From the NCBI GenBank assembly GCA_903918045.1, contig CAIXCY010000175.1:1-33998 (forward strand): DNA of 33,998 nt. Direction: 5' to 3'. Position numbers and translations under genes: made by a program. A model generated the notes under the pieces. The model was not told the origin of the DNA, ran no database searches, and saw only the letters and a program-made list of their open reading frames with translations. This stretch comes from an uncultured Bacteroidia bacterium (GTDB lineage Bacteria > Bacteroidota > Bacteroidia > Bacteroidales > Prolixibacteraceae). Shown in pieces: positions 736-32,754 of the stretch (position 1 is its first letter; every line of letters starts with the position of its first letter).

Positions 736-3700
736 AGCTGCACCGACTGCAACTGTTATTACCCAACCAACCTGTGCAGTACCTACCGGAACAATTGTGA
801 TTGGTGCTCCGTTAGGTGCCAATTTGCAATACAGCAGAAACGGGACTACCTGGCAGAGTTCAAACACCTTCAGTGGATTAACTGCTGATGCCGGTTACAC
901 CATAAGTGTGCGGAATTCAACCAGTTCCAATTGCGTTTCGTCAGCAAACTTTATTATCAATGCCATACCTAGTGCGCCGGCAGCACCAGTAGGCACAATC
1001 TTACAGCCAACGTGTTCTGTAAGCACTGGAACCATCCAGATCACATCACCACTGGGCGGGAACCTGCAATACAGTTCCAACGGAACAACCTGGCAAAACT
1101 CAACGACCTTTGCCGGCTTGACTGCGAATACGACCTATTCAATAAGCATACGAAGTTCCATTAATCCGACATGTATATCTTCAGCGAATTTTGCGATTAA
1201 TGCAGCACCTGTGGTACCAGCTATACCAATAATTGGCACTTTAACCCAACCAACCTGTTCAACAGCTACAGGAAGTGTCATTCTATCCGGATTACCGGGA
1301 ACAGGAGCCTGGACATTAACGAGAAATCCGGGAGGAATTACCATTAACGGAACCGGAACCAGCAGAACCGTTACTGGTCTTGCATCAGGAACCTTTAACT
1401 TTACAGTTTCAAACACTGTTGGCTGCACCTCATTCCCAACAGCAAATATTACTATTAATGCGGCCCCGGACACCCCATCCGCTCCGATTGTCGGGAATAT
1501 TATCCAGCCAACCTGTGATACCCCGACAGGGACAGTTTCATTATCCGGATTGCCTGCCACAGGAATATGGACCTTATCAAGAAATCCTGGAGGAACACTA
1601 ACTGGTGCTGGAATAAACACAACCATTGGGGGTCTCTCGCCTGGAACGTATCAATTTACGGTAACAAATTCATCGGGATGCACTTCATCGGCATCGAATC
1701 CGGTCGTTATTAACACCATCACACCGATAACCCCACTCTTTAATCCGATTGAGCCATTGTGTCAGAACTCAGTACCGCCTGGTTTACCAACACTTTCAAC
1801 AAACGGGATTTCCGGAGCATGGAATCCGGCAGTGATTAGTACACAGATTACTGGTACACAAACGTACAATTTCACGCCATTACCAGGTCAGTGTGCCAGT
1901 AATGCGACATTGCCGATAACCATAAATTCACCGGTCTTACCGCTGTTTGATCCCATCGGATCACTTTGCCAATATGGCGCGCCACCGGTGTTGCCAACGA
2001 CCTCAACAAATGGAATAACTGGAATATGGTTCCCCGATATTATTAATACCGATCAGGTTGGAATGTCAACTTATACCTTTACACCGGCAACCAGTGAATG
2101 TGCAAAACCTTTATCCATAACAATCACTATAAATGCTCCGATAAATCCCACTTTTTCAGGTATTGCTCCAATTTGTAGGAATAGCATTCCGCCGCCTTTA
2201 CCTACATCTTCGACGAACGGAATTAAAGGAACCTGGAGCCCGGCAGTAATTAATGTAACTATTCCAAGAACAAATACCTATAAATTCACCCCTGCCACTG
2301 ATCAATGCGCCAATACTCTGCCCATCCAGGTAACTGTCTATGACCGTATAACACCAACCTTTGAAGTTATTGGCCCTGTTTGTCAAAATACGATACCACC
2401 AGCTTTGCCGATACACTCTATTGAAGGAATAACAGTTAAATGGGATCCACCGACAATAAATACAGCTAAAATAGGAACCACTGGTTATTTGTTTACACCG
2501 ATGGAAGGTTGCGCATGGACCGACGCGATATCGGTAACTGTCACCCCCAAGGTCACTCCTGATTTTGCACCAATCGGGCCGTTATGCCAATACAGCTTAC
2601 CACCGATTTTATCAGCAACCTCCTTAAACAGAATAACGGGAAATTGGAGCCCGGCCGAAATAAGTACAGATAAGGATGGATTATTCACCTTCACATTTAC
2701 ACCGCTGGATCAGGAGTGCTATAATACAATTAGTAAAGAAGTAATTGTAAATAGCAGTCTCATAACAGCTTTCGATCCGATCGGACCGCTGTGTCAATTC
2801 GATGTTCCACCGGCACTTCCATTGACATCCGTTAACGGAATAGCAGGAACCTGGGAACCTTCCGCAGTGAATACAGCTAATGCCGGAACCTTTAACTTTA
2901 CATTTACACCCGATTCACAAGGTCCATGCGCATCCCAATTTAAAACAGTAATTATTGTAAGACCGAAGCAAAAGCCAATCTTCGATGCGATAGGACCACT
3001 TTGTTTAAACAGCAAAGCGCCTCAATTACCAGCGATCTCGGCAAACGGAATTAAGGGAACCTGGGAGCCAGCAAATATTAATACGGAAAATAGCGGATCG
3101 ACAACTTATACTTTTACTCCGGATGGTACAGAGTGTGCCTTTACACAAACATTAGCAATCGTGGTCATTACTCCGGCAATTCCAACATTTGATCCTGTCG
3201 GACCCCTTTGCCAGAACACAACAGCGCCTGTATTACCGTTAAATTCCAATAACGGCGTAACCGGATCATGGTCGCCAACAACGATCAACACAGAAAATTA
3301 CGGAACCTTTAGCTTTACGTTTAATCCTGCCTCAGATCAATGTGCAATCCCGGTTCCACAGGAAATTAGTATTAATCCAACAACCACCTCTTCTACAGAG
3401 CAAACCATCTGTATCAGTCAGTTGCCTTATAACTGGAATAACATCATTATTAATAGTGCAGGAACATTTGATGCTAAATTGATTGGTTCACAAGGATGTG
3501 ATTCAATTGCAACTTTAAACCTCAAAGTTAACACACTCATAATTCCAACTTTTGACCAGGTCGGGCCTCTGCTTTATGGTTCAGCTGCGCCAGAATTATC
3601 ATTAGCTTCAACTAACGGAATAACAGGAACCTGGATTCCTTCAGCCATCACAACTGATGCTGTCGGCACAACCAGCTATCGTTTCACCCCTGATTTGAAT

Positions 3701-4822
3701 CAGTGCGCTTCAACAGCGACAATGAATATTCAGGTAGATATCCAGGCTGTTATTTCGGAAGGGGGAATCGTTCCCGATCCAAACGGAATTCAAATCGGAT
3801 CTTGTGAAGTTGTAAAACTTGATGGTTCAAAATCTGTCGGTGATAACCTTCAATATCAGTGGTCAACCACTGATCAGGGTTGCATATTGACTCAGTCAAC
3901 CGGGATGACAACCGAATTTTCGCTGTCAGGTGAATATAAAGGTTCTCTGCCTGCCGATTTCAGTGTGAAGCTTCAGGTAACCGACAAATTTGGAAATTCT
4001 AAGAGCGATTTGGTAACTATTCATATTGATCCTCCTCCAAATGCAGAGGTCTACTCTTCAGGAGAAATTGAAAAAGACGGAAGTATGATTGTCGACGGAA
4101 CAGTTTCAACAGGGATCGCCATAAGCTATAAATGGTCGACCTCTGAAGGGAAGATAATCGGACCTGCTGACCATTCAACAGCGGCCTTCTTTGGTGCTGG
4201 AATGTATCAATTAACGATTGTTGACATTCATGGCTGCCAAAGTATAAAAGATTTTAAATTTCCGCTTGAGGTATACAGGATCACCGCAAGGCCCGATAAT
4301 TACAGGATTACCTGGTCGCAGGACACAATTCTTAATGTAAAAGATAATGATTATTCCAATTCTGTGTTCAGCACGGTTCGGGTGATTAGATTACCTTCAA
4401 ATGGCACAGTTACGGTAAATTCAGACCTTTCAATCACCTATACACCGACGATCAGAAAACCTGGAAACGATCAGTTTGAATATGAAATCTGCAATCCTGT
4501 CAGCTTATGCGATTCGGCATTGGTGACACTTGAGATCTTTGACAGTAGCCTATATCTCCCGGAAGGATTTTCTCCAAACGGCGATGGGGTAAATGATTAT
4601 CTGAAGTTCGATGGTCTTCAAAATTACAAATCCTCAAAACTTTACATCTACACACGTTCAGGACAACTTGTTTATTCAAGCGGTGATTATCAGAATAACT
4701 GGGATGGAAGGATCGGAAGCGGATTGAACAGGCAGCTGGTCGCAACGGGAACGTATTATTATGTGCTGAAACTGGGAGAGACAAACCGGACAATCAAAGG
4801 GTTTATTTATATCGGGTATTAA
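1..4822 (+). CDS. T9SS-secreted multi-repeat adhesin, 5'-truncated by the window edge
   Basis: The reading frame is open from base 2, and the first ATG (44) lies inside a repeat unit, so the true start is upstream of the window. More than 1600 residues are visible. From the N-terminal side they are: about 2.7 Ig-like units of 89 residues; four units of about 80-86 residues with a QPTC motif; nine units of about 68 residues with NGI-G-W and TFTP motifs; a PKD-like region; an Ig/cadherin-like region with YTPT; and a C-terminal domain of about 90 residues. That last domain begins [20 protein letters not shown] and contains NWDG and GTYYYVLKL. It matches the gliding motility-associated C-terminal (CHU_C, type B T9SS sorting) family. 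The protein is therefore expected to cross the outer membrane by T9SS and stay at the surface or be released. Ligand and role are unknown; adhesion is inferred from the repeat architecture. Its stop codon overlaps the stop of the opposing acyl-CoA synthetase gene. Confidence 0.93.
739..1729 (+). repeat. Four QPTC-type repeat units in the adhesin
   Basis: Four consecutive units of about 80-86 residues each contain Q-P-T-C then TGT or TGS, a central W-containing strand, and a second Cys near the end. Units 1 and 2 share an LQYS-NGTTWQ core. Units 3 and 4 share a GLP-TG-WTL-RNPGG core, so the block is two pairs of closer relatives. The conserved Cys pair suggests one disulfide per domain. Confidence 0.8.
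1730..3748 (+). repeat. Nine repeats of about 68 residues in the adhesin (interrupted)
   Basis: Nine units share the pattern F-x-x-I/V-GP-LCQ, then PP-LP-S-NGI-G-W-P, then YTFTP and a late Cys. An unrelated module of about 50 residues ([11 protein letters not shown] onward) separates units 8 and 9. In unit 9 the first Cys of the LCQ motif is replaced (GPLLYG), so its disulfide should be missing. Confidence 0.85.
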
Positions 4823-11945: not shown

Positions 11946-13175
11946 ATGGGTCAGGCAAGTGAATTACCAGCTAAAAAAGTCTCTTCTGCAGAAACAAATA
12001 AAATCAGACAAAAGAAAAAAATCCTGAGTTTAATGCGTTCCAGTGGTTACACCTCAGCGCCGGGCTTAAGCGAAGTACTCAAGATTAGTTTGCCCACTTG
12101 CATACTGCTTCTCAATGACCTGATCGCTGCGGGCTTTGTTAAGAATTTCGGGATTGGGGAATCGAGCGGTGGCCGAAAGCCAAGTCTTTATGGATTACCC
12201 GAAGATGGCTATTATGTAATCTCCTGTGATTTTTCGCGCTATTCTGCCAATATGGCAATTCTCGATTCCTATCACAAATTTGTTACCCCTGTAATTGAAG
12301 TCAATACCCATATTGATGATCCGCAATTGATGGACAAACTCTACGAAGCAGCGCACCAACTCATGACTGATCATCACATTCCTGATGAAAAGGTTTTCGG
12401 GATCGGTGTGGATATGCCGGGGCTGATCAATTCCAAAACAGGGATTAATTACACGATAAAAGATAAAAAACGGCAAAACGTAGGGCGCGATTTGAAATCA
12501 AGATTCAACAAACTGGTTTACATCGATAATGATGCCAGAATGCACGCCTACGGAGAGTTCCATTTTGGATCCGCAAAGGATTATAAAGATGCTATAATAA
12601 TTCACTGGAGTTGGGGTCTGGGGCTTGGAATTTTCGTGAATGGAGAGCTTTGCAGTGGGAAAAACGGCTTTGCCGGGGAATTCTCTCATATTCCGATTGT
12701 AGAAAACGGCGAATTATGTATCTGCGGGAAACGGGGATGCCTCGAAACAATTGCCTCCTCCAACACAATCATACGCAGGATAAAGCAGGGTTTTGCAGAG
12801 AAGGAGATCTCATCGCTGATTACCCGCTTTGAAGGTCACCCCGAAAGAGTTACTCCGGAAGATGTAATTAATGCCGCCCGCCAGGGTGACGAATTTTGTA
12901 TTGCAATTCTGAATGAGATCGGAACTGCAATGGGTAAGGGGCTCTCCTATATCATTCAATTGCTTAATCCCGAAATTATCGTCCTTAGCGGACCACTTTC
13001 GAAAGCCAAGCAATATGTTTTATCCCCAATCCAGCAATCTTTAAACCGCTTTTGTCTTGAGAAAATATCAGAAAGCACTATACTTCTTATCTCGGATATG
13101 GGTGATCAGTCAGCTCTGATTGGAACGTCCGAAATGATTTTTCAAAAAGTCTTTACCGAAATAAATTTTGCATAA
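11946..13175 (+). CDS. ROK-family transcriptional regulator (NagC/XylR type), copy 1
   Basis: This 409-residue protein has an N-terminal winged helix (about 18-80; SAPGLSEVLKISLPTCILLL, with wing ESSGGRKPSLY). A ROK sugar-binding/kinase-like fold follows. The ROK zinc motif is intact: H248 plus CICGKRGCLE (C258, C260, C265, E267). GAGEFSH-like AGEFSHI and the NDA catalytic-Asp motif (D196) are present, but the N-terminal phosphate loop DxGxT is degenerate (CDFSRYS at 94-100). It is therefore probably a sugar-responsive DNA-binding regulator and not a kinase. ROK repressors of this type sense GlcNAc-6-P, xylose, glucose and similar ligands; the ligand here is unknown. It directly precedes a SusC/SusD pair, its presumed target. 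A second copy of equal length, alignable without gaps and roughly three-quarters identical by eye, starts at 18743. Confidence 0.93.
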   Translation: MGQASELPAKKVSSAETNKIRQKKKILSLMRSSGYTSAPGLSEVLKISLPTCILLLNDLIAAGFVKNFGIGESSGGRKPSLYGLPEDGYYVISCDFSRYSANMAILDSYHKFVTPVIEVNTHIDDPQLMDKLYEAAHQLMTDHHIPDEKVFGIGVDMPGLINSKTGINYTIKDKKRQNVGRDLKSRFNKLVYIDNDARMHAYGEFHFGSAKDYKDAIIIHWSWGLGLGIFVNGELCSGKNGFAGEFSHIPIVENGELCICGKRGCLETIASSNTIIRRIKQGFAEKEISSLITRFEGHPERVTPEDVINAARQGDEFCIAILNEIGTAMGKGLSYIIQLLNPEIIVLSGPLSKAKQYVLSPIQQSLNRFCLEKISESTILLISDMGDQSALIGTSEMIFQKVFTEINFA

Positions 13176-13207
13176 AAGAATCCAAATTTAAAACCAAATG
13201 CAACACT

Positions 13208-13231
13208 ATGAAACACATTAAAAGTGGCTAA
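13208..13231 (+). CDS. Candidate leader micro-ORF (MKHIKSG) upstream of susC 1
   Basis: ATG-AAA-CAC-ATT-AAA-AGT-GGC-TAA encodes seven residues, M-K-H-I-K-S-G. The equivalent position before the second susC has M-K-V-M-K-S-G with the same length, the same stop and a synonymous Gly codon change. In both leaders the stop is 13 nt before a stem-loop. No clear Shine-Dalgarno site is visible, which is common in this phylum. The alternative is that the 26-bp block is a protein-binding site or promoter and not translated. Confidence 0.35.
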   Translation: MKHIKSG

Positions 13232-13244
13232 AATTGATCATGAC

Positions 13245-13269
13245 CTCCGATTTTGAAGCATTATCGGAG
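13245..13269 (+). promoter_or_regulatory. Leader stem-loop with conserved TTTTGAAGCA element, susC 1
   Basis: CTCCGAT (13245-13251) pairs perfectly with ATCGGAG (13263-13269) around an 11-nt loop. The segment TTTTGAAGCA and the flanking CTCC/GGAGAC are repeated in the leader of susC 2. The 3' arm contains a GGAG that the stem would hide. No T-tract follows, so it is not an intrinsic terminator. Confidence 0.55.
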
Positions 13270-13271
13270 AC

Positions 13272-13323
13272 TTAACTTCGTATAAATCCACAGATGCGAA
13301 GTTAACGGATCAGTTTTCTGTGG
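13272..13323 (+). promoter_or_regulatory. Possible H-type pseudoknot in the susC 1 leader
   Basis: TTAACTTCG (13272-13280) pairs perfectly with CGAAGTTAA (13297-13305). Its 16-nt loop contains CCACAGA (13288-13294), which is perfectly complementary to TCTGTGG (13317-13323) downstream. The two helices (9 and 7 bp) can form together as an H-type pseudoknot with connecting segments of 7, 2 and 11 nt, or can act as alternative hairpins. The structure ends 46 nt before the susC ATG. Confidence 0.45.
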
Positions 13324-13369
13324 TAAATTATCAACTCAGAATTTCAAATTTGATTAATTCAAAAAACTT

Positions 13370-16300
13370 ATGCGAAAGGTTTTATTATTAACCGTTATGT
13401 GCCTTGCACTCATAGGAAGTGCAATAGCGCAACATTCGGTATCCGGAACTGTTGTTTCCGGATCTGATGGACAAGGGATGCCGGGAGTTACTGTTGCCGA
13501 AAAAGGGACTACCCAGGGAACCCTAACCAATATAGATGGTAAATTTACATTAAAGGTCACTTCCGAAAAATCAACACTCGTATTTTCGTTCGTCGGAATG
13601 AAACCAGTTGAAGAGGTTGTAAATAGCCGAACAGTTGTGGATGTGAAAATGGCTTCACTCGAAATCGGATTGGACGAGGTGGTGGTTACCGCTTTGGGGC
13701 GTACCAGAGAATCAAAAAAACTCGGTTTCTCAACTGCACAGGTTGCCGGGGCCGAACTGGCTATGACTCAGCAGGTCAATCCGGTCAACTCCCTTCAGGG
13801 AAAGATCGCCGGGGTGCAAATTGACCAGGGTGCCGCAGGACCTTTTGGTAGTTCAAGAATCGTCATCCGGGGAAACTCAACGTTGGGAACCAATAACCAG
13901 CCAATTTTCGTGGTTGACGGAGTAATTGTCGAAAATAACGCAGTTACAGGCGGACGCGATTTTGGAAATGACCTGAAAAACTTAAACAGCGAGGATTTTG
14001 AAAGCGTCTCTGTCCTTAAAGGTTCAGCTGCAGCAGCGCTTTATGGCTCCCGCGCTATCAACGGCGTTATCCTGATTACTACCAAAAAAGGGAAAAAGAC
14101 AGGTGGAATCGGAGTTGATGTATCTCAATCCTACACCTCCTACAATCCTTACAAAGGTCCTGATTTTCAGAATGAGTATGGTGGTGGTACTGTGGGGGAC
14201 TTTTTTACGGACACCCGCGACCCGAATTATACCGCTCAGCAACGATGGACAACCAAAGTGTTCCCGATCGACCCTTCAACACACGAACCCTATATCGACC
14301 GTCAGATTGGCCGCGAACTCGAAAACTGGGGGCCTAAATTCGCAAACCAGAAAGTGCGAAATTACGATGGTACATGGACCGAATATAAGGCCGTTCCGAA
14401 TAACTTCCTCGATGCATTTGAAAAAGGGATGTTAAATTCTACCAATGTCGCTTTTCAGGGAGCAACAGACCGGACAACCTTTAGATTCTCCTTTACAAAC
14501 GAAGATCAGAAAGGGATTGTTGCGCAAAACAGTTTAAAGAAGAACGGATTTAATCTGAGAGCAACCCACGAATTAACAAAGTGGCTAAGTGCAGATATCA
14601 GTGTTGATTATACTACCACTGACAATGCCAATCCACAGAACTTATCCACTGATGATTCATTTGCAGGAAATAACTACGGCCATGCATTTACCTGGGTTCT
14701 CCCTCGTAACTACGATACCAAATACTGGATGCAACGCTCAAAATATACAAGCGTATTCGGAGGAACACCAAATCCAAATAATCCGGCTGAAACCAACAAG
14801 ATCTTTGTCCCTGAATTATGGTTTAACCTCTATGAAAATAAAGTTACCCAACAGGACAGAAGTATCCGTGGAAGATTTGCCGTAACAGCAAAACTGACTA
14901 AATGGGCGAGCCTTATCGTAGAAGGGAATTTAAATAATATCTACGGCAAGTACGAAAATAAGGAACTAGGCAAAGGGACTGGATTTGATGGCGGTGTATA
15001 TGCGACAAACGAGTCCCGAAGAGAGAGCAATTTTCTTAAATGGATGTTAACCTTTAATGACATCAAGCTGATGGATGACCTAAAATTCAGTGGTTTTGTC
15101 GGAGGCGAGAAACAGAATATTATACGATCTTATGTTTCAGGAAGTACTAATGGAGGGCTCTTAATTCCGGGCAATTTCTTTATTGCAAATTCTAAAAATC
15201 CGGCAACTGTAGCGGGAGGAGTTAACTACAATAAAAAATTCAACTCCCTATATGCAAGCGCCGACTTCGAATATAAAAATCAGCTTTTCCTCACCACAAC
15301 AATGCGCGGCGACTGGTCATCTGCTTTAACCTATAAAAACGGAACAGGAAACAATTTCTACAGTTACCCTGCTGCCTCCCTTTCATGGATCTTTACTGAA
15401 ACCTTCAAAAACCTTCCTGAAGCCATCTCTTTTGGGAAATTGAGGACAAATATTGCAGCCCTTGGTAAGGATACAGATCCGTTCCTGATCAATCCGGGCT
15501 ACAATTTCACAGGAAATGCAACCGGAGAAGTTGGAAGTCCTTCTACTGCAGGATTCAGTTCAAGTACCACGTTAACACCCAACATCAAGCCTGAGCGCAA
15601 AATTGCCAAGGAGATCGGTGCAGAAATGCGCTTCCTGAAAAACAGGGTTGGATTCGAAGTTTCACTATATCAGGATAACACGTACAATCAGATTATTGAT
15701 GTCACAACGCCATCAGAGTCAGGTGTATCGGGCATTAAAATCAATGCCGGAGATATTCAGAATAAGGGGATTGAGATCACATTGGACGGTACACCAATTA
15801 AATCAAAAGATTTCCAATGGAATTCAAGGCTGACCTTCTCGCAAAATAAAAATATGATTAATTCGCTTTACGGCGGAAGAACCGAATATTCCCTGGGAGG
15901 TGGCGCAGCAGAAACCAGCGCATGGGCCATTGTTGGCAAATCGTATGGGGTTATCCGTTCTACAATTGCTGCAGAAAGGTATGTTGGCACTGGCAGTTCC
16001 GACCCGAAGAACGGAATGGCCGTCCTTAACTGGAGAGGTGATGCACGGACTGCATTCCCAAAAAGAAGTAATACCTGGAAAACCCTCGGCGATATCAATG
16101 CAAAATTCAGAGGCGGATTCTCGAATGATTTCGTATACAAAAATTGGTCCCTGAATGTTCTGATTGACGCCAAAATCGGTGGAGACATGGTATTGGCCTC
16201 ATACCGTTTCGGAACCCATACAGGGGTTTTACCAAATACGTTGAAAGGCAGAGATGCTTCCCATGGCGGGATCACCTGGACCAGCAAATATGACGGCATC

Positions 16301-16750
16301 ACCTATGATGACGGATTAATTGCGGATGGTGTATTCGCTGCCGGACAGACTATTACACAGGCAGACAATACCTCCGCAAATGTTGGCGGCATGACTTTTA
16401 AGGAAGCTTACGATCAAGGCCTTGTTGAACCATCGCATGCACCCCAGTTTTACTATCGTTACGGATCTTCCTCAACGGGGGTTGCCGATTACTGGGTGAA
16501 AGAGAGCACATGGGTTTCTTTACGTCAGTTAGCGCTTTCTTACACTCTTCCAAAGAATATCAGTTCAAAAATCAAGATGAGCTCTGTCGTTGTGAGCCTG
16601 ATCGGAAGAGATTTATTCTATATCTACAACTCATTGCCATACAATTTCAATCCGGCCTCTTTGAATTCAACCTCTACAGCTGCTGTCGGCGAATTGGGCT
16701 TCTTGCCAATGATGCGCTCTCTGGGCGGATCCATAAGGGTGAGTTTCTAA
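13370..16750 (+). CDS. SusC/RagA-family TonB-linked outer-membrane protein, module 1
   Basis: This 1126-residue protein has a signal peptide 1-20 (cleavage ...GSAIA/Q) and a carboxypeptidase regulatory-like domain (about 22-95; FSFVGMKPVEEVV). The SusC signature EVVVTALG is at 103-110. A plug follows (about 115-240), including VIRGNSTLGTNNQPIFVVDGV and SVLKGSAAAALYGSRAINGVI. A large beta-barrel ends in Phe (RVSF). SusC proteins form the TonB-powered outer-membrane channel closed by a SusD lid. There is no STN domain, so control by an ECF/FecR system is not expected. This fits the ROK gene upstream. A susD gene starts 38 bp downstream. The ligand cannot be read from sequence; glycan or glycopeptide import is inferred from the PNGase gene in the cluster. 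Confidence 0.95.
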   Translation: MRKVLLLTVMCLALIGSAIAQHSVSGTVVSGSDGQGMPGVTVAEKGTTQGTLTNIDGKFTLKVTSEKSTLVFSFVGMKPVEEVVNSRTVVDVKMASLEIGLDEVVVTALGRTRESKKLGFSTAQVAGAELAMTQQVNPVNSLQGKIAGVQIDQGAAGPFGSSRIVIRGNSTLGTNNQPIFVVDGVIVENNAVTGGRDFGNDLKNLNSEDFESVSVLKGSAAAALYGSRAINGVILITTKKGKKTGGIGVDVSQSYTSYNPYKGPDFQNEYGGGTVGDFFTDTRDPNYTAQQRWTTKVFPIDPSTHEPYIDRQIGRELENWGPKFANQKVRNYDGTWTEYKAVPNNFLDAFEKGMLNSTNVAFQGATDRTTFRFSFTNEDQKGIVAQNSLKKNGFNLRATHELTKWLSADISVDYTTTDNANPQNLSTDDSFAGNNYGHAFTWVLPRNYDTKYWMQRSKYTSVFGGTPNPNNPAETNKIFVPELWFNLYENKVTQQDRSIRGRFAVTAKLTKWASLIVEGNLNNIYGKYENKELGKGTGFDGGVYATNESRRESNFLKWMLTFNDIKLMDDLKFSGFVGGEKQNIIRSYVSGSTNGGLLIPGNFFIANSKNPATVAGGVNYNKKFNSLYASADFEYKNQLFLTTTMRGDWSSALTYKNGTGNNFYSYPAASLSWIFTETFKNLPEAISFGKLRTNIAALGKDTDPFLINPGYNFTGNATGEVGSPSTAGFSSSTTLTPNIKPERKIAKEIGAEMRFLKNRVGFEVSLYQDNTYNQIIDVTTPSESGVSGIKINAGDIQNKGIEITLDGTPIKSKDFQWNSRLTFSQNKNMINSLYGGRTEYSLGGGAAETSAWAIVGKSYGVIRSTIAAERYVGTGSSDPKNGMAVLNWRGDARTAFPKRSNTWKTLGDINAKFRGGFSNDFVYKNWSLNVLIDAKIGGDMVLASYRFGTHTGVLPNTLKGRDASHGGITWTSKYDGITYDDGLIADGVFAAGQTITQADNTSANVGGMTFKEAYDQGLVEPSHAPQFYYRYGSSSTGVADYWVKESTWVSLRQLALSYTLPKNISSKIKMSSVVVSLIGRDLFYIYNSLPYNFNPASLNSTSTAAVGELGFLPMMRSLGGSIRVSF

Positions 16751-16788
16751 TAAGATGTTATAGAAATTAATAATTTAATTCTTTAAAA

Positions 16789-18453
16789 ATGAAAAAAACC
16801 ATTTTATATATCATATTGGCCACCTTGACCAGCTTGTTCTCAAACTCGTGTACGAAGGACTTTACAAGCACCAATGTGGATCCAAGCATAATCAGCAATG
16901 TCGATGTGAGGTTCCTCTTCACTACATCGCTGGAGAATCTGCAGGGAAACCGCGAATGGATCTGGGAAGACCTCGAACAATTACTCAGATATAGTCAATT
17001 GTTAACTTCCGACCCTTATGAGCTCTCGGGAAGCGTAAATAATCGTTACGGCGCATTTTACTCGGCCATCCTCCCCAACTTATTTGAGATGAGACGTCTT
17101 ATCGATAACAAAGCGGATAAGGATAACTTTCAGAAAATCTACGCAGCTACCTATATCATCCAGGTTTTCCAGGGTCTTAAAGTTACTGATATGAACGGTT
17201 CTATACCGTACACTGAAGCAAACCAGGGTAGAGATAAGGGAAAATACAACCCCGTTTACGACACTCAGAAAGTACTTTACGATACCTGGATTAAAGAACT
17301 GAGTAATTCGATAACCGTTCTGGAAAAGGATCTTGCCAATCAGGAATCATTCGGTAATAACGATATCTTCTACCAGGGAGATTGGACCAAATGGGCTAAA
17401 CTGGCCAATTCCTTAAAATTGAGGATTGCTGCAAGGTATCAGAATCCTGATCCTGCCGCTGCAACGCAAATATTTAAAGAGGTGATGGCAGATGCCGTTG
17501 GACCAATCAGTTCAATCGCAGATCAGATGACCTATAGTAATACCAACTATATCCCGTTTGGACCTACTGAGATTGACTATCGCAGCAGGCGTTATGCCGC
17601 CGAAAATGTTGTCGACTTTATGAAAGCAACAGGCGACCCCCGTATCTCGATTTACTATGACAAGAACTCACTGGTGGGAGATTTTAAGACAGCTTTGACA
17701 GCAAACAGCGTTACACTCCCATCATGGATAAACCTCGATGATCCGCTGGTCGCATTCCAGGGTGGCCCTTCCGATTTTGGCGCCAACGGGGATAAAAACA
17801 AATACTTTTCGAACGGTGTTCCTGTCGGATCAAGTAAATATAATTTGATCTCAACGATAAACCGTAGGTTCTTTATGCCTCATTTGGATGGAGCCAACGG
17901 TCAATACATTGATGTATTAGTCTCTTATGCAGAAGTTTGTCTGAACATAGCCGAATTTATCCAGAAAGGATATGGCTCTGCATTTGATACGAAAGGGACT
18001 GCATCCGATTGGTATAATAAAGGGGTTCGTGCATCCGCCAATACAATGAATACGATCGCAATTGCAGCAGGATCAGCCTCGGTTGTATCGATCGATCCTT
18101 TGGTTGACACCTACCTCACCAGCCCAAAAGTCAAACTGGATGGAAATAATAACCTTGAAAAAATCTATATCCAGCAACTCTTGAACTTCTATCGTCAGGG
18201 CAACGAAGCATTTACATTGGTTCGCCGCACAGGATTCCCTAAATTTAATTCAACAATACTGGCCAGGGAGACAATGCCCGACATGATACCAAGAAGGTAT
18301 TGGCTGCTCGATCCGGGTGAAGTAAACCGCGCAAATTGGAATGCTGCCATGACTGAGGAGGGTTTTACACCGAATGACAGAAGCGCAGAAAAACTTAGTA
18401 CAGAGCGCATCTGGTTTGACAAGAATTCTCCGGCTTTCGGAGCAGGGAATTAA
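16789..18453 (+). CDS. SusD/RagB-family surface lipoprotein, module 1
   Basis: This 554-residue lipoprotein has a signal peptide ending in SNSC with lipidated Cys at 21. The body has SusD-like alpha-helical (TPR-like) segments. These include the DMNGSIPYTEA region near 140-150, the long WTKWAKLANSLKLRIAARYQ helix, and a C-terminal FYRQGNEAFTLVRRTGFP segment typical of the SusD-like nutrient-binding outer-membrane lipoprotein family (RagB-like branch). It caps the SusC barrel encoded 38 bp upstream and captures ligand at the cell surface. A strong terminator lies about 85 bp downstream, closing the first module. Confidence 0.94.
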   Translation: MKKTILYIILATLTSLFSNSCTKDFTSTNVDPSIISNVDVRFLFTTSLENLQGNREWIWEDLEQLLRYSQLLTSDPYELSGSVNNRYGAFYSAILPNLFEMRRLIDNKADKDNFQKIYAATYIIQVFQGLKVTDMNGSIPYTEANQGRDKGKYNPVYDTQKVLYDTWIKELSNSITVLEKDLANQESFGNNDIFYQGDWTKWAKLANSLKLRIAARYQNPDPAAATQIFKEVMADAVGPISSIADQMTYSNTNYIPFGPTEIDYRSRRYAAENVVDFMKATGDPRISIYYDKNSLVGDFKTALTANSVTLPSWINLDDPLVAFQGGPSDFGANGDKNKYFSNGVPVGSSKYNLISTINRRFFMPHLDGANGQYIDVLVSYAEVCLNIAEFIQKGYGSAFDTKGTASDWYNKGVRASANTMNTIAIAAGSASVVSIDPLVDTYLTSPKVKLDGNNNLEKIYIQQLLNFYRQGNEAFTLVRRTGFPKFNSTILARETMPDMIPRRYWLLDPGEVNRANWNAAMTEEGFTPNDRSAEKLSTERIWFDKNSPAFGAGN

Positions 18454-18536
18454 TTACAGAAATTCTAAAATTCCCCAGATATATTAATTGATATCTCCTT
18501 ACTAAGGGGGGTTCGTTAAACTTAATTACAATTTCG

Positions 18537-18576
18537 AGAGACCGTTCCATAATAAAATGGGGCGGTCTCTTTTGTT
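18537..18576 (+). terminator. Intrinsic terminator after susD 1
   Basis: AGAGACCG (18537-18544) and CGGTCTCT (18563-18570) form an 8-bp perfect stem with an 18-nt loop, followed by a T-rich tail (18570-18576). It separates module 1 from ROK 2. Confidence 0.8.
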
Positions 18577-18658
18577 AAATAATATTGGAAAAAGCCGTTT
18601 GTAAACCTATAATACCTTCCAAAATTTAAGGATATTAATTAAAACATGTTAAAAAGTC

Positions 18659-18690
18659 ATAAATAGTTTATAATATTTTTAATAATCTTG
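18659..18690 (+). promoter_or_regulatory. Candidate promoter of ROK 2
   Basis: ATAAATAG (18659-18666) leads to TAATCTTG (18683-18690), which matches the TAnnTTTG consensus at all but one base. The block aligns with the one upstream of ROK 1 (23/31 bases) and lies 53 nt from the ATG. The 18454-18742 gap otherwise holds only the terminator and AT-rich spacer. Confidence 0.45.
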
Positions 18691-18742
18691 TGCTCTCTAA
18701 ATATTTAAATTCCTAAACAAACTTTTAGAGAAATGGATTTTA

Positions 18743-19972
18743 ATGGATCAGATTAAACCTAAAAAGAATAAAACCGGCTCTTCCACTGAAATGAATAAGA
18801 TTTCGCAAAAGCGGAAGATGCTGAATTTGATGCGGACCAATGGAGTCATATCTGCTCCAGACTTAAGTAAGTTGCTTAAAATCAGCCTACCTACTTGTAT
18901 TATGTTGCTTAATGATATGATTGCTACAGGATTTGTGAAGAATTTCGGGGTTGGGGAGTCGAGTGGTGGGCGTAAACCCCTGTTATATGGGCTGCCCGAA
19001 GATCGCTTTTATGTGATCTCCTGTGATTTTTCACGCTTCTCAGCTAACATGGCCATTCTAAATTCGTATCATCAGTTTGTTACTCCGGTAACAGAAATCG
19101 ATACTCATATTGACGATCCAAATATTGTCGAGAAATTATATCAGGCAGCCAATATGCTGTTAAAAGAAAATCATATACCGGCAGAGAAGCTCTATGGCAT
19201 CGGTGTGGATATGCCGGGACTTATCAATTCGGGAACGGGCATTAATTATACAATAAAGGACAAAAAAAGGCAAAATATTGGACGAGACCTGAAACATCGC
19301 TTTTCAAAACGCGTATACATAGAAAACGATGCAAGAATGCACGCCTTTGGAGAATACTATTTTGGTGCGGCCAGGGGTTTTAAGGATGCGATCATTATCC
19401 ATTGGAGCTGGGGACTTGGATTGGGGATTTTTGTAAATGGAAAGCTGTGCAGTGGTAAAAATGGTTTTGCCGGCGAGTTCTCCCATATACCGATAGTGGA
19501 AAACGGAGAGTTGTGTATTTGCGGGAAACGGGGTTGTCTTGAAACCATCGCTTCTTCAAATACAATACTAAGCAGGATAAAACAGGGTGTAGCCACGGAA
19601 GTAGTTTCACCCCTTATCAACCAGATTAAAGAACATCCCGAGAAAGTAACTCCGGAGGATGTGATAAACTCGGCACGGCAGGGAGATGAATTTTGCATTT
19701 CCATCTTAAATGAGATTGGAACTGCAATGGGCAAAGGGCTCGCATACATTATTCAGTTGCTCAATCCGGAGGTAATCGTACTTAGCGGACCATTGTCTAA
19801 AGCCAAAAAGTATGTTTTATCACCAATTCAGCAAGCGCTAAACCGCCTTTGCCTCGAGAAGATTTCAGAAAGTACAACGATACTTATTTCGGATCTGGGG
19901 GATCAATCAGCCATGCTCGGAACTTCCGAGATGATCTTCCAGAAAGTTTTTGAAGAGCTGGATTTTGAATAA
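18743..19972 (+). CDS. ROK-family transcriptional regulator, copy 2
   Basis: This 409-residue paralog of the ROK protein at 11946 aligns with it end to end without gaps. The winged helix (about 18-80; SAPDLSKLLKISLPTCIMLL), the NDA motif (D196), H248 and the zinc motif CICGKRGCLE (258-267) are all conserved. The phosphate loop is again degenerate (CDFSRFS). The ligand-pocket region WSWGLGLGIFVNG-LCSGKNGFAGEFSHIPIVENGEL is almost identical in both copies, suggesting they sense the same or a very similar sugar. Most differences lie in the first 20 residues, around 125-150 and around 275-295. It precedes susC 2, its presumed target. An ATG 10 bp upstream (18733) is out of frame. Confidence 0.93.
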   Translation: MDQIKPKKNKTGSSTEMNKISQKRKMLNLMRTNGVISAPDLSKLLKISLPTCIMLLNDMIATGFVKNFGVGESSGGRKPLLYGLPEDRFYVISCDFSRFSANMAILNSYHQFVTPVTEIDTHIDDPNIVEKLYQAANMLLKENHIPAEKLYGIGVDMPGLINSGTGINYTIKDKKRQNIGRDLKHRFSKRVYIENDARMHAFGEYYFGAARGFKDAIIIHWSWGLGLGIFVNGKLCSGKNGFAGEFSHIPIVENGELCICGKRGCLETIASSNTILSRIKQGVATEVVSPLINQIKEHPEKVTPEDVINSARQGDEFCISILNEIGTAMGKGLAYIIQLLNPEVIVLSGPLSKAKKYVLSPIQQALNRLCLEKISESTTILISDLGDQSAMLGTSEMIFQKVFEELDFE

Positions 19973-20017
19973 ATCAGATAACTAAGAAAGGAGAAAATTA
20001 ACCCCTAAATCAAAAAT

Positions 20018-20041
20018 ATGAAAGTAATGAAAAGTGGATAA
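20018..20041 (+). CDS. Candidate leader micro-ORF (MKVMKSG) upstream of susC 2
   Basis: ATG-AAA-GTA-ATG-AAA-AGT-GGA-TAA encodes M-K-V-M-K-S-G and parallels the micro-ORF before susC 1 in length, K2, K5-S6-G7 and stop. The distance from the stop to the stem-loop is 13 nt in both. A purine-rich AAAGGAGAAAA at about 19987-19997 is too far upstream (about 20 nt) to be a standard ribosome site. Confidence 0.35.
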   Translation: MKVMKSG

Positions 20042-20054
20042 AGACCATTGAAAC

Positions 20055-20081
20055 TCTCCCGTTTTGAAGCAAGACAGGAGA
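20055..20081 (+). promoter_or_regulatory. Leader stem-loop with conserved TTTTGAAGCA element, susC 2
   Basis: TCTCCCG (20055-20061) pairs with CAGGAGA (20075-20081) with one C-A mismatch, around loop TTTTGAAGCAAGA. Compared with the susC 1 element, the CTCC/GGAG pairs and the loop are kept. One stem pair has changed A-U to G-C (compensatory), and the neighbouring pair is G-C in one copy and mismatched in the other. Confidence 0.5.
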
Positions 20082-20112
20082 CCGTACTTTTTAAACCGGA
20101 GGTACATAATTA

Positions 20113-20132
20113 TTCCGCATTTTACCGCGGAG
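20113..20132 (+). promoter_or_regulatory. Second hairpin in the susC 2 leader
   Basis: TTCCGC (20113-20118) pairs with GCGGAG (20127-20132), with five Watson-Crick pairs plus one G-U, around an 8-nt loop. It occupies roughly the place of the pseudoknot candidate in the susC 1 leader but is unrelated in sequence. Confidence 0.35.
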
Positions 20133-20170
20133 CAAATTTTCAATTAAAATTAAAACTAAAATTAAAACTT

Positions 20171-23100
20171 ATGCGTAGGATCTTATTATTGACTGTAATG
20201 TGCATTGCACTGTTAGGCAGTGCAATTGCGCAGCATGCAGTAACTGGCAGGGTTACTGATAATGAAGGGACTGGGATACCCGGTGTTACGGTATCCGAAA
20301 AAGGGACAACCAATGGTACCATTACCAGTACAGACGGAAAGTATTTCATTAAGGTTGCTTCAGATAAATCTATTGTTGTATTTTCCTTTATCGGAATGAA
20401 GCCCGTTGAACAGGTTGTTAACGGCCGGATGACTATTGATGTCAAAATGGTGGCTGAAAACATTGGACTCAATGAAGTCGTTGTTACAGCTTTGGGAATT
20501 AGCAAGGAGTCCAAAAAATTAGGATATGCTGTCACACAGGTTGCAGGTGATAAAATAGCCGCTTCAACGACTATCAGTCCGGTAAATGCACTTCAGGGGC
20601 TTGCTCCGGGAGTTGACATTGCTCCAAGTGAAGGCGGTATTTTTGCAGGTTCGAAAATAACAATTCGTGGTAATTCGACACTCAAAGGGAACAACATGCC
20701 AATATTTGTTGTTGATGGAGTAATTATCGACAATTCAACCTCAGGAGGTAGCGAATGGGGCGGAGTTGACTGGGGTAATGATCTTAAAAACCTGAATGCT
20801 GATGAATTTGAATCGGTATCTGTTTTGAAGGGAGCAGCGGCCACAGCGCTTTACGGATCACGTGCGTTAAATGGCGTTATCGTAATTGCAACAAAAAAAG
20901 GAAAATCACGCAAGGACCTTGGGGTTAAAATTTCTCAGAGATCAAATATCAAAACAGTTTATGCAGGCCCTTCATTCCAAAATGTATACGGCGAAGGTGC
21001 GCCTCCGGGATATGACACCCGTTACCCCGACATGTACGCCCCTCAAAAATCGTTTTTAATGAATGCTCAGGGAGAGCCTTATATCGAAGGTATTTCCGGT
21101 GACTGGTGGGTTCCAATGAGTTTCGGACATAAAATGGACGGATCGAAGATTCGTGACTATGAAAATAACTGGGTAAATTACGATGCACAACCCAATAATG
21201 CTATTGATGCATTTCAACAAGGTTATCAGACAAATACCAATGTGACTCTTGAGGGTGGCGGAGACAATTCAACCTTTCTGGTCTCTTTGTCCCATTTCGG
21301 TGAGACAGGTACATTACCCCGTAATATTTTTACGCGTGAATCTCTTTTTACAAAGGTTACACGGAAATTCAACAAATACATTTCTACTGAATTTACTACA
21401 AGTTATAATAACTCAACCCCGGAAAATCCTGCAGGAACAATGATGCAGAATTTCATTACTGGAAACTGGGCAAGAAATTATAATACCTCTTATTGGAGAA
21501 CCCGCTACAGAGCTCCTCATGGAGGGATCCCACAGACCCATCCGGATGGAACAATAGACCCGGGAGCAAGTATTCCCGATGCTGGTGTTTGGTTCAATCT
21601 TTACCAGAATAGCAGCAAACGGATCGAAGAATCGCTTCGTCTTACAGGTAAAATGACCTTCACAATTAACGATTGGTTTAACGTTGTTGCAGATGGATCT
21701 TTGAATAATTATTACATAAAATCTGAAGATAAAATTCTTGGTCAGGGTTATCGTAATGAAGGTGGCAGCTACAGTCTTAACCATTCAAGAAAAGAACAAT
21801 ACGACGGAAAGCTATGGTTGAATTTCCATAAAGCCTTCAAACACGATCTTGACGCTTCGCTATCTGTTGTAGCTGAGCATTGGGAATCAGGAAATAGCTA
21901 TTCGGGTGCATGGACAAATGGTGGTTTGATTGTTCCTGGTCAGTATTCACTCTCAAACAGTAAGTCGCAACCTGGCCAGCAGGCTGGTATCGACGGAACC
22001 AAGATCCTTGAATCCCTGATGTTTTTCTCCGATATTTCCTGGAAAAACCAACTGTTCTTAAGTATCTCAGGTCGTAATGACTGGTCATCCACACTTGCCT
22101 ATGCTGACGGATCGGGCTCAATGAGTTATTTTTATCCTTCCGCCAGTTTATCCTGGTTAGTTAATGAAACTTTCAAATTACCCGAAGTAATCGATTACGG
22201 CAAACTTAGATTCTCAGTGGCTCAGGTCGGAAATGACTACTCTCCATACTCTATCAACCCGGGTTTTGGCAGAACAGGAACAGTTCAGAGCTACAATGGC
22301 GATTTGCCTACCTACAGTTTCATTAATAGCCAGATGCCTAATCTGGGTATCAAACCTGAAAATAAGAAATCAATCGAAATGGGTTTTGAGACCAGGTTGT
22401 TGAAAAACCGCATTGGAATCGATTTTTCCTATTACAAGGAGAACACCTATAACCAGATTCTTGCAATTCCTGAAAACGGTTACACCGGCGTTTCAAGTCA
22501 GTTAATCAATGCAGGTAATATTCAAAACCAGGGTATTGAGATTGCATTAAAAACAACTCCAATTAAGACGAAAGATTTTAGCTGGTTTGTAAATCTGAAT
22601 TACGCCCGTAACCGCAATACAATTGTCGATTTATATCCAGGCATTGCAGAATATGATCTTTACGGAAGCTGGAATTATGGAAATACCCGCGTTGGAACCG
22701 TTGCAAAAGTTGGCGGCCCATGGGGAGTGCTGATGTCAGATTCAAACCCTAAACTCTACAAAAACGCAGCAAATCCAAATGATCCGCTTAATGGTCAGAA
22801 ACAGCTTACCTGGAATGCTGGTCAAAGAGGAGGTTATTATACAAGAAGTTACGAGAAACAAGTGGTCGGAAATATGAATCCTGATTTTATCGGAAGTGTT
22901 ACCACTGGATTCGACTTTAAAAATTTCCATGTTGAGGCATTATTTGACATGAAAATTGGGGGTGATATTTCTACCTATTCAGGACGTTATGGTACTGCTT
23001 ATGGCTTATTGGCCTCAACACTCGCAAACCGGGATAAGGAACATGGCGGATTTGAGTGGTCAAGTGCCTGGACCGGAAACTCTTATGATGATGGTTATAT

Positions 23101-23545
23101 TCCTGATGGAGTTTTTGCTGCCGGAACAACCGTTAAAATGAAAAATTCAGCCGGTGCAGAGGTAAGTAACAATGTTGGTGGAATGACCTACAAAGATGCC
23201 TATAAACAAGGATTAGTTGATCCTGTGCATGGTGCATGGTGGCATTGGAAAAATAATTCATGGGGCGGTGGCGTAATTGATGACGCCGTAGTTCAGGAAA
23301 ATTCATACATCGGATTCAGACAATTTACAATAAGCTATCGCATCCCTTCAAATGTCTGTAAAAAAGTGGGATTATCTGCTGCTGATGTTTCATTCTTCGG
23401 TCGTGACCTTGGATTTGTTTACAAATCTTTGAAAGATAACCTGAATCCATTCAGTGTCAGAAGTAACGAATCTGGTTCGGCTCACGAATGGCAACAATCT
23501 CCTTACACAAGGACATTGGGTCTTGCCTTCAATTTATCATTCTAA
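20171..23545 (+). CDS. SusC/RagA-family TonB-linked outer-membrane protein, module 2
   Basis: I take the ATG at 20171, giving 1124 residues. It yields a proper signal peptide (MRRILLLTVMCIALLGSAIA/Q) nearly identical to that of SusC 1. The frame stays open upstream to a TTG at 20048, but that stretch is the AT-rich leader (a run of LK repeats) and not protein. Domains are a carboxypeptidase regulatory-like domain (about 22-95; FSFIGMKPVEQVV), EVVVTALG (103-110), a plug (KITIRGNSTLKGNNMPIFVVDGV; SVLKGAAATALYGSRALNGVI) and a barrel ending LAFNLSF. It is clearly paralogous to SusC 1, with diverged barrel loops, so the ligand may differ. Its susD partner starts 38 bp downstream. Confidence 0.94.
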   Translation: MRRILLLTVMCIALLGSAIAQHAVTGRVTDNEGTGIPGVTVSEKGTTNGTITSTDGKYFIKVASDKSIVVFSFIGMKPVEQVVNGRMTIDVKMVAENIGLNEVVVTALGISKESKKLGYAVTQVAGDKIAASTTISPVNALQGLAPGVDIAPSEGGIFAGSKITIRGNSTLKGNNMPIFVVDGVIIDNSTSGGSEWGGVDWGNDLKNLNADEFESVSVLKGAAATALYGSRALNGVIVIATKKGKSRKDLGVKISQRSNIKTVYAGPSFQNVYGEGAPPGYDTRYPDMYAPQKSFLMNAQGEPYIEGISGDWWVPMSFGHKMDGSKIRDYENNWVNYDAQPNNAIDAFQQGYQTNTNVTLEGGGDNSTFLVSLSHFGETGTLPRNIFTRESLFTKVTRKFNKYISTEFTTSYNNSTPENPAGTMMQNFITGNWARNYNTSYWRTRYRAPHGGIPQTHPDGTIDPGASIPDAGVWFNLYQNSSKRIEESLRLTGKMTFTINDWFNVVADGSLNNYYIKSEDKILGQGYRNEGGSYSLNHSRKEQYDGKLWLNFHKAFKHDLDASLSVVAEHWESGNSYSGAWTNGGLIVPGQYSLSNSKSQPGQQAGIDGTKILESLMFFSDISWKNQLFLSISGRNDWSSTLAYADGSGSMSYFYPSASLSWLVNETFKLPEVIDYGKLRFSVAQVGNDYSPYSINPGFGRTGTVQSYNGDLPTYSFINSQMPNLGIKPENKKSIEMGFETRLLKNRIGIDFSYYKENTYNQILAIPENGYTGVSSQLINAGNIQNQGIEIALKTTPIKTKDFSWFVNLNYARNRNTIVDLYPGIAEYDLYGSWNYGNTRVGTVAKVGGPWGVLMSDSNPKLYKNAANPNDPLNGQKQLTWNAGQRGGYYTRSYEKQVVGNMNPDFIGSVTTGFDFKNFHVEALFDMKIGGDISTYSGRYGTAYGLLASTLANRDKEHGGFEWSSAWTGNSYDDGYIPDGVFAAGTTVKMKNSAGAEVSNNVGGMTYKDAYKQGLVDPVHGAWWHWKNNSWGGGVIDDAVVQENSYIGFRQFTISYRIPSNVCKKVGLSAADVSFFGRDLGFVYKSLKDNLNPFSVRSNESGSAHEWQQSPYTRTLGLAFNLSF

Positions 23546-23583
23546 TAAGTGTGTTGAATTGTAAATACTTAAAATTACAAATT

Positions 23584-25314
23584 ATGAAACAAAGAATATA
23601 TAAGATGTTATCGGTATTGCTCTTAACCATGGTATTGGTTAACTGTACTGATCGGTTCGCAGCAATAAACAAAGATCCGGGAGAGGTTACCGATCCCGAT
23701 ATTACCTATCTTTTTACCAATGCCTTGAACGGCTTGGGCGATGGATATCTAGACTGGTTCTACAATAACAGCGTTTACTACTGGCGATATGCACAAATGA
23801 CGGTAGCACGCGGCGGAACAAATTCTGACTTTAATAATGTCGCAGCATTGGGAGGTGTTTCACCTTATGGTATGCTAATTGATATGAAGGAAATCAGGAA
23901 TCGCATCGAAAAAATGCCAGCCGATCAAAAAGCGGTATATCAGGCATTCAACGCAGTTACCTTTATTCCCGTTATTGATATCGCAATGAGAGCCTCTGAC
24001 TGGGAAGGGAGTATGGTCTATTCCGAAGCAGTTGATGCAAGGTATGGTGGCAATATGAAGCCTAAATATGATACTCAGCAGGAGCTTTACGATATCTGGA
24101 TCAAGGAACTCGATGCAGCAATAACTGCCTTAACAACTGCAGATTCTAAACAAGTCCAGATCGGAAATCAGGATTATATGTTTAAAAGTGACTGGGAATT
24201 ATGGGCACGTTATGCCAATTGTCTGAAACTTCGGATTGCAGCGCGTCTTGAGAAAGCCGACAATGCAAAAATGAGAACCTTACTTACTTCAATTGTTAAT
24301 CAAAAGGATAAAAGTGGACAGACCTTATTGATCACCGAGTTGAACCAACAGGCAGTTTGGGCACCAGGCGCAAATGAAGCAGGTCCTGGCGGCGGAAATA
24401 GCCTCTGGATTGAAAATTATGCACCTTCAAATAAGTATAGCAAGTTTATGCGTACCGTTAATGATCCCCGTCTGAGAATCTGTTTCAGAACAAACTCACT
24501 TAACGATGCTGCCATAACAGCCTTACAGGCAACCCCTGGTATCTCTGTTCCAAAGTTTGCCACTAAACCGGTAAATGAGCCCTGGGACCGTTTGGTTGGC
24601 GCTCCGGTCGCCCCTGACAGTGCTGGAGTCAAGGACTATTTCGGCGCAACTTTAATTGATGCAACAGGTGCTACCTATCAGAGACTTCCCTTCGTAGAGT
24701 ACAATTACATTAAGCCAAAACAAAATGGCCGAAATGGCGAGTATCTCAATTATGTAGTTGGGGCTCCTGAAATATGCCTCTATATGGCTGAATTCATCGA
24801 AAAAGGCTATATTACAGGGATCGGAACAGCCAAGGATTGGTATGAAAAAGGGGTAAATCTTTCTTTACAAAATTACAATAACCGCGCAGCAAAAGCACAG
24901 ATTCCTGATTATAACACACGTGGTTTAGTAACAGGTGAAGTTGAGTCTCTTTTGGCAAAAGATAATGTGAAATACATTTCCGGTGACCCAAAAAATATTG
25001 AGAAAATTATCCTTCAGGAACTTGTAAACCTTTTTGATAATCCATATCAATGTGTTTCTGTAGTACGCAGAACAGGCTTTCCTAAAAAAGGGAGTACAAT
25101 CTGGCCTTGGGAACCTTATACAGTTTCCGGGACTGAATTAAAGCTTCCTCGCAGATTCCCTGTTAATACTCCAACAATTGATAATAACAAGGCAAATTGG
25201 CAAACCGCAATTACAGCTGAAGGATTTACACCTGATAATAATACAGGCGACATACTTAATGCTGAAAGAGTATGGTGGGATAAAACAGCCCCCGATTATG
25301 GTGCCGGACAGTAA
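23584..25314 (+). CDS. SusD/RagB-family surface lipoprotein, module 2
   Basis: I take the ATG at 23584, giving 576 residues. It begins a lipoprotein signal with lipobox LVNC (Cys 21) and leaves a 38-bp gap to susC 2, the same as in module 1. An ATG further upstream (23488) would overlap susC and push the signal sequence inward. SusD-like segments parallel module 1: DWEGSMVYSEAVDARYGGNMKPKYDTQ, SDWELWARYANCLKLRIAARLE, and the C-terminal VNLFDNPYQCVSVVRRTGFP. It captures ligand on the cell surface with SusC 2. Confidence 0.93.
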   Translation: MKQRIYKMLSVLLLTMVLVNCTDRFAAINKDPGEVTDPDITYLFTNALNGLGDGYLDWFYNNSVYYWRYAQMTVARGGTNSDFNNVAALGGVSPYGMLIDMKEIRNRIEKMPADQKAVYQAFNAVTFIPVIDIAMRASDWEGSMVYSEAVDARYGGNMKPKYDTQQELYDIWIKELDAAITALTTADSKQVQIGNQDYMFKSDWELWARYANCLKLRIAARLEKADNAKMRTLLTSIVNQKDKSGQTLLITELNQQAVWAPGANEAGPGGGNSLWIENYAPSNKYSKFMRTVNDPRLRICFRTNSLNDAAITALQATPGISVPKFATKPVNEPWDRLVGAPVAPDSAGVKDYFGATLIDATGATYQRLPFVEYNYIKPKQNGRNGEYLNYVVGAPEICLYMAEFIEKGYITGIGTAKDWYEKGVNLSLQNYNNRAAKAQIPDYNTRGLVTGEVESLLAKDNVKYISGDPKNIEKIILQELVNLFDNPYQCVSVVRRTGFPKKGSTIWPWEPYTVSGTELKLPRRFPVNTPTIDNNKANWQTAITAEGFTPDNNTGDILNAERVWWDKTAPDYGAGQ

Positions 25315-28949: not shown

Positions 28950-28963
28950 CGTTTATCTCCTTT

Positions 28964-32569: not shown

Positions 32570-32589
32570 AATTTTATAACGATTTTATA
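32531..32589 (-). promoter_or_regulatory. Inverted repeat enclosing the susC 3 start codon
   Basis: TATAAAATCG (32531-32540) and CGATTTTATA (32580-32589) are a perfect 10-bp inverted repeat separated by 39 bases. The ATG at 32569 lies in the loop, and the alternative ATG at 32518 lies 12 nt beyond the stem. In mRNA the stem could block or steer initiation. The arms are AT-rich, so stability is moderate. Confidence 0.4.
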
Positions 32590-32637: not shown

Positions 32638-32666
32638 GATTATTAATATTATATACATTTTTGCTG

Positions 32667-32703: not shown

Positions 32704-32754
32704 AGTCCTGGCAGTCGTTATTTCATAGGCATCACAGTTTAAGTATTTTAGTTG

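Follow-up and report, generated by a model that had tools for sequence, protein, structure and literature searches.

In leader-peptide (uORF) mRNA leaders, a very short ORF is followed by structured RNA and then by the regulated gene. SAM-II and preQ1 riboswitches are built on H-type pseudoknots. SAM-V is likewise described as an H-type pseudoknot riboswitch. For susC genes of gut Bacteroides, control at the RNA level by small and antisense RNAs is known from two sources (PMC11697453, PMC7366714). According to these, the susC gene BT_3983 of the N-glycan locus PUL72 is controlled at its 5' region by FopS small RNAs together with RbpB (PMC11697453), and susC homologues are targets of DonS-type cis-antisense RNAs (PMC7366714). 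The latter source also mentions, for B. thetaiotaomicron generally, sORFs in long 5' UTRs.

Here, leaders preceding susC genes were analysed in a 33,998-nt window, i.e. the whole of one contig from the draft genome of an uncultured member of the Prolixibacteraceae, and in related genomes. As in leader-peptide leaders, a very short ORF is followed by structured RNA and a presumably regulated gene. Unlike in these, neither a terminator-like site nor an alternative fold kept among the leaders was found, the pseudoknot appears older than the ORF on the tree, and the seven codons end in SG-stop and hold no regulatory codon run. With the FopS/RbpB and DonS systems, the leaders would have in common that a susC homologue is controlled via RNA at its 5' region, PUL72 being directed at host N-glycans. 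The agents there are a protein and RNAs that act in trans or as antisense, whereas a cis structure with a micro-ORF is present here, in another family. The overall H-type topology within a leader is that of SAM-II, SAM-V and preQ1 riboswitches, but the loop letters are unconserved, no Rfam match was obtained and the target is a glycan importer. The best reading of the sequences is that the leader is a real, lineage-restricted RNA with a conserved micro-ORF, and that the pseudoknot is its most deeply kept part.

Layout of the ROK-susC units and their leaders

Two tandem ROK-susC-susD units (11946-25314) are followed in the window by a PNGase F-like gene (25462-27177). ROK family regulator 1 (11946-13175, plus strand, Pfam PF00480) precedes susC 1 (13370-16750, plus strand, Pfam Plug and CarbopepD_reg_2). 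ROK family regulator 2 (18743-19972, plus strand) and susC 2 (20171-23545, plus strand) were likewise assigned by Pfam search. The ROKs of the tandem units are 77-79% identical. The best named ROK match (89% identical) came from a Prolixibacteraceae MAG, and other ROK matches were mostly from Prolixibacteraceae, Mariniphaga and uncultured Bacteroidia (22 loci). Elsewhere in the window, 44-4822 encodes a large repeat protein of Ig/PKD type whose C-terminal domain is of the type IX secretion (CHU_C) kind, and direct repeats with 267 bp spacing are found at the start of this gene. A third susC/susD pair lies on the minus strand (27279-33747); its STN domain and an adjoining FecR-type gene suggest a kind of control different from that of the ROK units.

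Ahead of susC 1, a first-pass annotation made from the letters of the contig had reported a micro-ORF, a 13-nt spacer and a 7-bp stem-loop, and all of these were present. Micro-ORF 1 (13208-13231, plus strand, ATGAAACACATTAAAAGTGGCTAA) encodes MKHIKSG-stop and is backed by the coding-type variation seen among homologous ORFs (sets of 10 and 12). Its stop codon is separated by the spacer (13232-13244, plus strand, compared across the spacers of 14 leaders) from hairpin P1 (13245-13269, plus strand), in which folding and covariation place the 7-bp stem CTCCGAT/ATCGGAG with an AAG tip. The annotated stretch ended at 13269, and an H-type pseudoknot at 13275-13323 was therefore missed. Stem S1 of this pseudoknot (P2, 13275-13302, plus strand) is formed by the arms ACTTCGTA (13275-13282) and TGCGAAGT (13295-13302). 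Stem S2, placed by covariation, has its 5' arm CCACAG within the S1 loop (13288-13293, plus strand) and its 3' arm CTGTGG (13318-13323, plus strand) 46 nt upstream of the susC 1 start codon. The stretch from the pseudoknot to this start codon (13324-13369, plus strand) is AU-rich.

The same arrangement had been claimed for susC 2. Leader 2 (20018-20080) does contain a micro-ORF (20018-20041, plus strand, ATGAAAGTAATGAAAAGTGGATAA, MKVMKSG-stop) and a stem-loop with AAG tip (P1, 20056-20080, plus strand, by folding), but the spacer between stop codon and stem is 14 nt instead of 13 nt, and the stem is mismatched (4 bp, a C.A mismatch and 6 bp). Folding places two plain hairpins (20084-20130, plus strand) where leader 1 has the pseudoknot, and leader 2 scored only 29.8 bits with the covariance model R1 described below. 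These plain hairpins are shared with G094c (L086), the nearest relative on the ROK tree.

Distribution and descent of the leader

To compare related loci, 140 genomes of the family were searched for ROK orthologues and the ROK-to-susC gaps were then read. A covariance model (R1) was built from 7 leaders and run on the 140 family genomes under strict filters. Matches at E ≤0.1 were obtained in 11/140 genomes, all within the genus of the window, and in 0/122 family genomes outside it. Because the G080 and G088 leaders, already spotted via their ROK genes, escaped R1, a second model (R2) was built from 12 leaders and run on the same 140 genomes. Again 11/140 genomes gave matches, now including three G080 leaders and still without that of G088, and 0/122 family genomes outside the genus did. 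Since both models failed on G088, leaders as divergent as this one could be overlooked elsewhere. When 393 genomes drawn from the order were searched with R2, the window's own leader and one match over a long ORF were returned. Model matches in G424 and G085:C300, over long opposite-strand ORFs, and the match in G089, one of the 11 genomes of the R1 run, at the end of an unrelated ORF, were attributed to chance.

All sources combined, 19 leaders were found in 12/18 genomes of the genus (three each in G080 and G094, two each in G000, G086 and G091, and one each in G078, G081, G083, G085, G087, G088 and G092). The third instance for which the annotation had looked to related genomes thus exists. 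The micro-ORF query proposed in the annotation proved too narrow: with ≤1 mismatch, it gave 34 matches among the 122 genomes from other genera of the family, compared with 28 for the reversed pattern (counted by hand). This is background level, and the pattern alone was discarded as a search query outside the genus. The leader was absent from 13/13 sister-genus ROK-susC loci read, in which the gap measures just 40-60 nt. Within the genus, the ROK-susC gap of G082 is also 40-60 nt and without a leader, and none was present in the 420 nt following the third ROK paralogue of the window's genome (C61).

A ROK gene adjoins 17/19 leaders. In G091a and G094b, the leader lies ahead of susC with no ROK gene in the preceding gap, and therefore goes with susC there. 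In G086a, G092a, G083 and G088 (L082, L094, L093, L110), the leader stands ahead of a more distant susC kind, whose first 130 residues share 41-47% identity with those of susC 1. Because the ROK-leader unit precedes this more distant kind, ROK plus leader and susC seem to have been reshuffled.

In a ROK tree of 28 rows (G087, G091a, G094b and G083 left out), the leader-bearing ROKs formed one clade (96/96). The clade also holds G000c and G094d, which have no leader to show, G094d being situated at a contig end. G085, G078 and G081, which carry the pseudoknot and no micro-ORF, were placed outside the clade (99/97) that holds every micro-ORF row, in a branching order that this tree does not resolve. 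Inside the micro-ORF clade, the ORF was lost in G088. Since the pseudoknot-only rows branch outside the micro-ORF clade, the pseudoknot would have come first, and the micro-ORF would have been added later or lost in the earliest branches.

Pairing and coding signatures

In leader 1, the 79 nt that run from P1 through the pseudoknot folded with z = -4.52, and the 75-nt block of leader 2 did so with z = -3.97 (0/200 shuffles as good in both). Folding z-scores of 10 cores ranged from -4.52 to -1.10, calculated by a program that cannot form pseudoknots. When 7 leaders were aligned with MAFFT, paired cells made up 93.0% vs 35-50% with slid partners, and double changes occurred in 8/25 pairs vs 1-4. 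For the 19 leaders aligned with R1, 87.5% of 447 cells were paired vs 38-46% with slid partners and double changes were seen in 17/25 pairs vs 7-13, in an alignment that is biased towards P1 and S1, to which it was fitted, S2 being outside the model. Hairpin P1 and the pseudoknot are thus preserved by compensatory changes.

Read by hand, the H-type pseudoknot is formed in 12/19 leaders. S1 (8 bp) has 7-8 pairs formed in 11 of these and 5/8 in G080b, whereas S2 (6 bp) is fully paired in 10 and has 5/6 pairs in G087 and G080a. Loop L1 is constantly 5 nt long and L3 12-16 nt. The S2 arms CCACAG/CTGTGG covary to CCACAT/ATGTGG and to CTGCAG/CTGCGG, with in-step changes from A-U to G-C at pair 3 and from G-C to U-A at pair 6. 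In the remaining 7/19 leaders (w2, which is the second copy in the window, G094c, G091a, G094b, G086b, G083 and G088) the pseudoknot is lost or replaced, plain hairpins standing in its place in w2 and G094c. The P1 tip UUUUG-AAG-CAAAA recurs among the leaders, and the last core base is 36-50 nt from the susC ATG (14 leaders measured). G-U cells outnumber A-C cells (35 vs 12 cells, which are not independent, and 18 vs 9 distinct kinds). This excess points to a leader that acts as RNA read in the susC direction.

A frame of 6-7 codons is found at the micro-ORF position in 14/19 leaders. Ten of the 14 end in Ser-Gly-stop (MKHIKSG, MKVMKSG, MKKLKSG, MKNIKSG, MNNPLSG, MKEMKSG, MNEINSG, MNYLKSG, MNYLESG and MNNLKSG), and the others read MKTHKS, MKTSKS, MNKNNSN and MEKNQIK. 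The first three of the latter, each closed by a stop codon, are the shortened or altered ORFs of G080 (L083, L084, L165), whose three leaders have covarying pseudoknots, with S1 weak in G080b. Among the 10 Ser-Gly-stop ORFs, AGT and AGC for Ser, GGA, GGC and GGT for Gly, and the stops TAA and TGA interchange. Codon 2 is AAN, each of the four letters occurring as N, and codon 4 specifies a hydrophobic residue except in a single ORF, which has Pro there. Averaged over pairs, the differences per codon position were 0.263/0.152/0.537 in these 10 ORFs (column permutation p 0.012, ignoring the tree). Because picking SG-ending ORFs biases this test, it was repeated with two 7-codon non-SG ORFs added (12 total), giving 0.32/0.236/0.556 (column permutation p 0.013, again ignoring the tree); the two 6-codon ORFs were excluded owing to their length. 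The micro-ORF thus varies like coding DNA and shows the conservation as a short coding ORF by which leader peptides are recognised. The coding reading, originally drawn from two copies, is strengthened by the number of leaders with a frame and by the third-position and stop-codon exchanges.

The distance from stop codon to hairpin, whose start was set by hand, is 9-16 nt in 13/14 leaders and 3 nt in one. A ribosome covers about 12 nt past the translated codon, as given in PMC4833913, and with this spacing a ribosome at the micro-ORF stop would stand near the foot of P1. The coding-type exchanges and the spacing together make a translated leader ORF ending at the hairpin credible, and with it the earlier suggestion that a ribosome ending on the micro-ORF would reach the stem.

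Five of the 19 leaders (G078, G081, G083, G085 and G088) are without the frame; the hairpin is kept in 4 of them and the pseudoknot in 3. The fold is therefore independent of the ORF, and the ORF dispensable. A broken frame in a conserved DNA block had been named as a sign of a DNA operator. The frameless leaders come near to this, but their ORF block is gone rather than conserved and broken.

A candidate cis-acting leader RNA and its alternatives

For signals of transcriptional control, 13100-13420 was scanned for intrinsic terminator-like sites; none were found (0.2 expected by chance). T runs of at least 6 were not found in 15/19 leaders (runs of 5 occur in three). TAnnTTTG, the promoter motif used in the leader scan, was found neither in 15/19 leaders nor upstream of either ROK gene, and since the motif is missing there as well, its absence from the leaders says little. 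No sigma-70-like site was present in leader 1, and the promoter of these genes was thus not located. Since terminator-like sites, T runs and TAnnTTTG were all lacking in these scans, there is no support for transcription attenuation or for a promoter within the leader. Transcription may start inside or after the leader.

Rfam searches at gathering scores gave 0 matches in the window. At E up to 5, weak matches were obtained in leader 1 (uup, RAGATH-25) and none in G091b. The uup RNA motif (RF03060) resembles a single hairpin of leader 1, but with 19.6 bits (E 0.11, 0.05) the match is far below the gathering score of 36.8, and it was rejected. Weak Rfam matches in four loci and two leader regions were also ascribed to chance, those of the loci being below gathering scores. 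Among the matches listed from open-licence literature there was no SusC leader peptide or micro-ORF, and no leader was found among the matches listed from ROK, SusC and N-glycan literature. SusC and TonB have 0 occurrences in the main text of PMC2864571, which deals with 104 candidate RNAs. The earlier statement that no such class had been described agrees with these searches.

The chances are judged about even that the element is a cis-acting susC leader RNA, composed of a translated 6-7-codon ORF, a hairpin and an H-type pseudoknot, which sets SusC(D) output post-transcriptionally. In such a leader, the short ORF of 6-7 codons would be translated, the foot of P1 would lie approximately at the leading edge of a ribosome halted at the ORF's stop codon, and the pseudoknot would be positioned 36-50 nt ahead of the susC start codon. 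The amount of SusC(D) would be set by the leader on a transcript that mostly reads through from the ROK gene. The leader's fold would separate the AU-rich start region of susC from the RNA upstream of it, possibly as a stability or processing barrier or an insulator. The micro-ORF would serve as a ribosome landing place, and ribosomes on it would cover the upstream part and let hairpin and pseudoknot form.

A regulated switch, in which translation of the micro-ORF or a stall at Ser-Gly-stop refolds hairpin and pseudoknot and turns susC on or off as in translation-coupled leaders, is unlikely. It would account for the conserved ORF, with its seven codons and SG-stop in 10/14, and for a spacer that places the hairpin near the edge of a ribosome with about 12 nt of cover (PMC4833913). 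By eye, however, no conserved alternative pairing was seen: an outer helix of leader 1 (AAAATTGATC/GATCAGTTTT) is absent from the other leaders inspected, and the GTGG of the micro-ORF cannot pair with the CCAC arm in G086a, which has an AGC codon. Leader 1 moreover has no terminator-like site, and each of the 5/19 leaders missing the micro-ORF keeps hairpin or pseudoknot. That the leader instead offers a binding site to a small or antisense RNA or to an RNA-binding protein, on the Bacteroides model, is considered quite improbable. The same gene type is under a post-transcriptional layer there (PMC11697453, PMC7366714), and the recurrent P1 tip might be such a site. FopS, however, pairs with the translation initiation region and not with a structured block about 40 nt upstream, and the G-U excess favours the sense strand.

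Very little probability is assigned to a metabolite-binding riboswitch. H-type pseudoknots do carry riboswitches (SAM-V), and both a covariation-supported pseudoknot in 12/19 leaders and an L1 of constant length are in line with one. The L1 letters of the 12 pseudoknots vary, however (TAAAT, CAAAT, AAAAA, TTGAC, GGGAT and others), L3 is variable, and near-invariant loop letters as of a ligand pocket were not found; neither leader 1 nor G091b matched any Rfam riboswitch, even at E 5. A DNA operator mimicking RNA structure, for instance for the ROK repressor, is rated as very unlikely. Such a site would fit the conserved inverted repeats and the ROK gene next door in 17/19 leaders, but interleaved pseudoknot arms are unlike a simple operator, G-U pairs outnumber A-C pairs, and the ORF block shows coding-type change. 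The block is also absent in all sister-genus ROK-susC pairs read and in G082, and the leader stands without ROK in G091a and G094b.

In its most far-reaching form, the cis-acting leader reading would have ribosomes that finish the 7-codon Ser-Gly-stop peptide gate the pseudoknot, so that the state of translation sets the supply of a glycan importer near the PNGase F-like gene, the micro-ORF having been grafted onto an older pseudoknot leader and the whole forming a new class of leader RNA. This full version is unlikely. For uncultured Prolixibacteraceae, a conserved cis-acting pseudoknot and micro-ORF leader would mean a layer of control different from that by small and antisense RNAs in gut Bacteroides. 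With the pseudoknot early and the micro-ORF later or lost early, it would also make it possible to test how leader peptides become placed in front of structured leaders.
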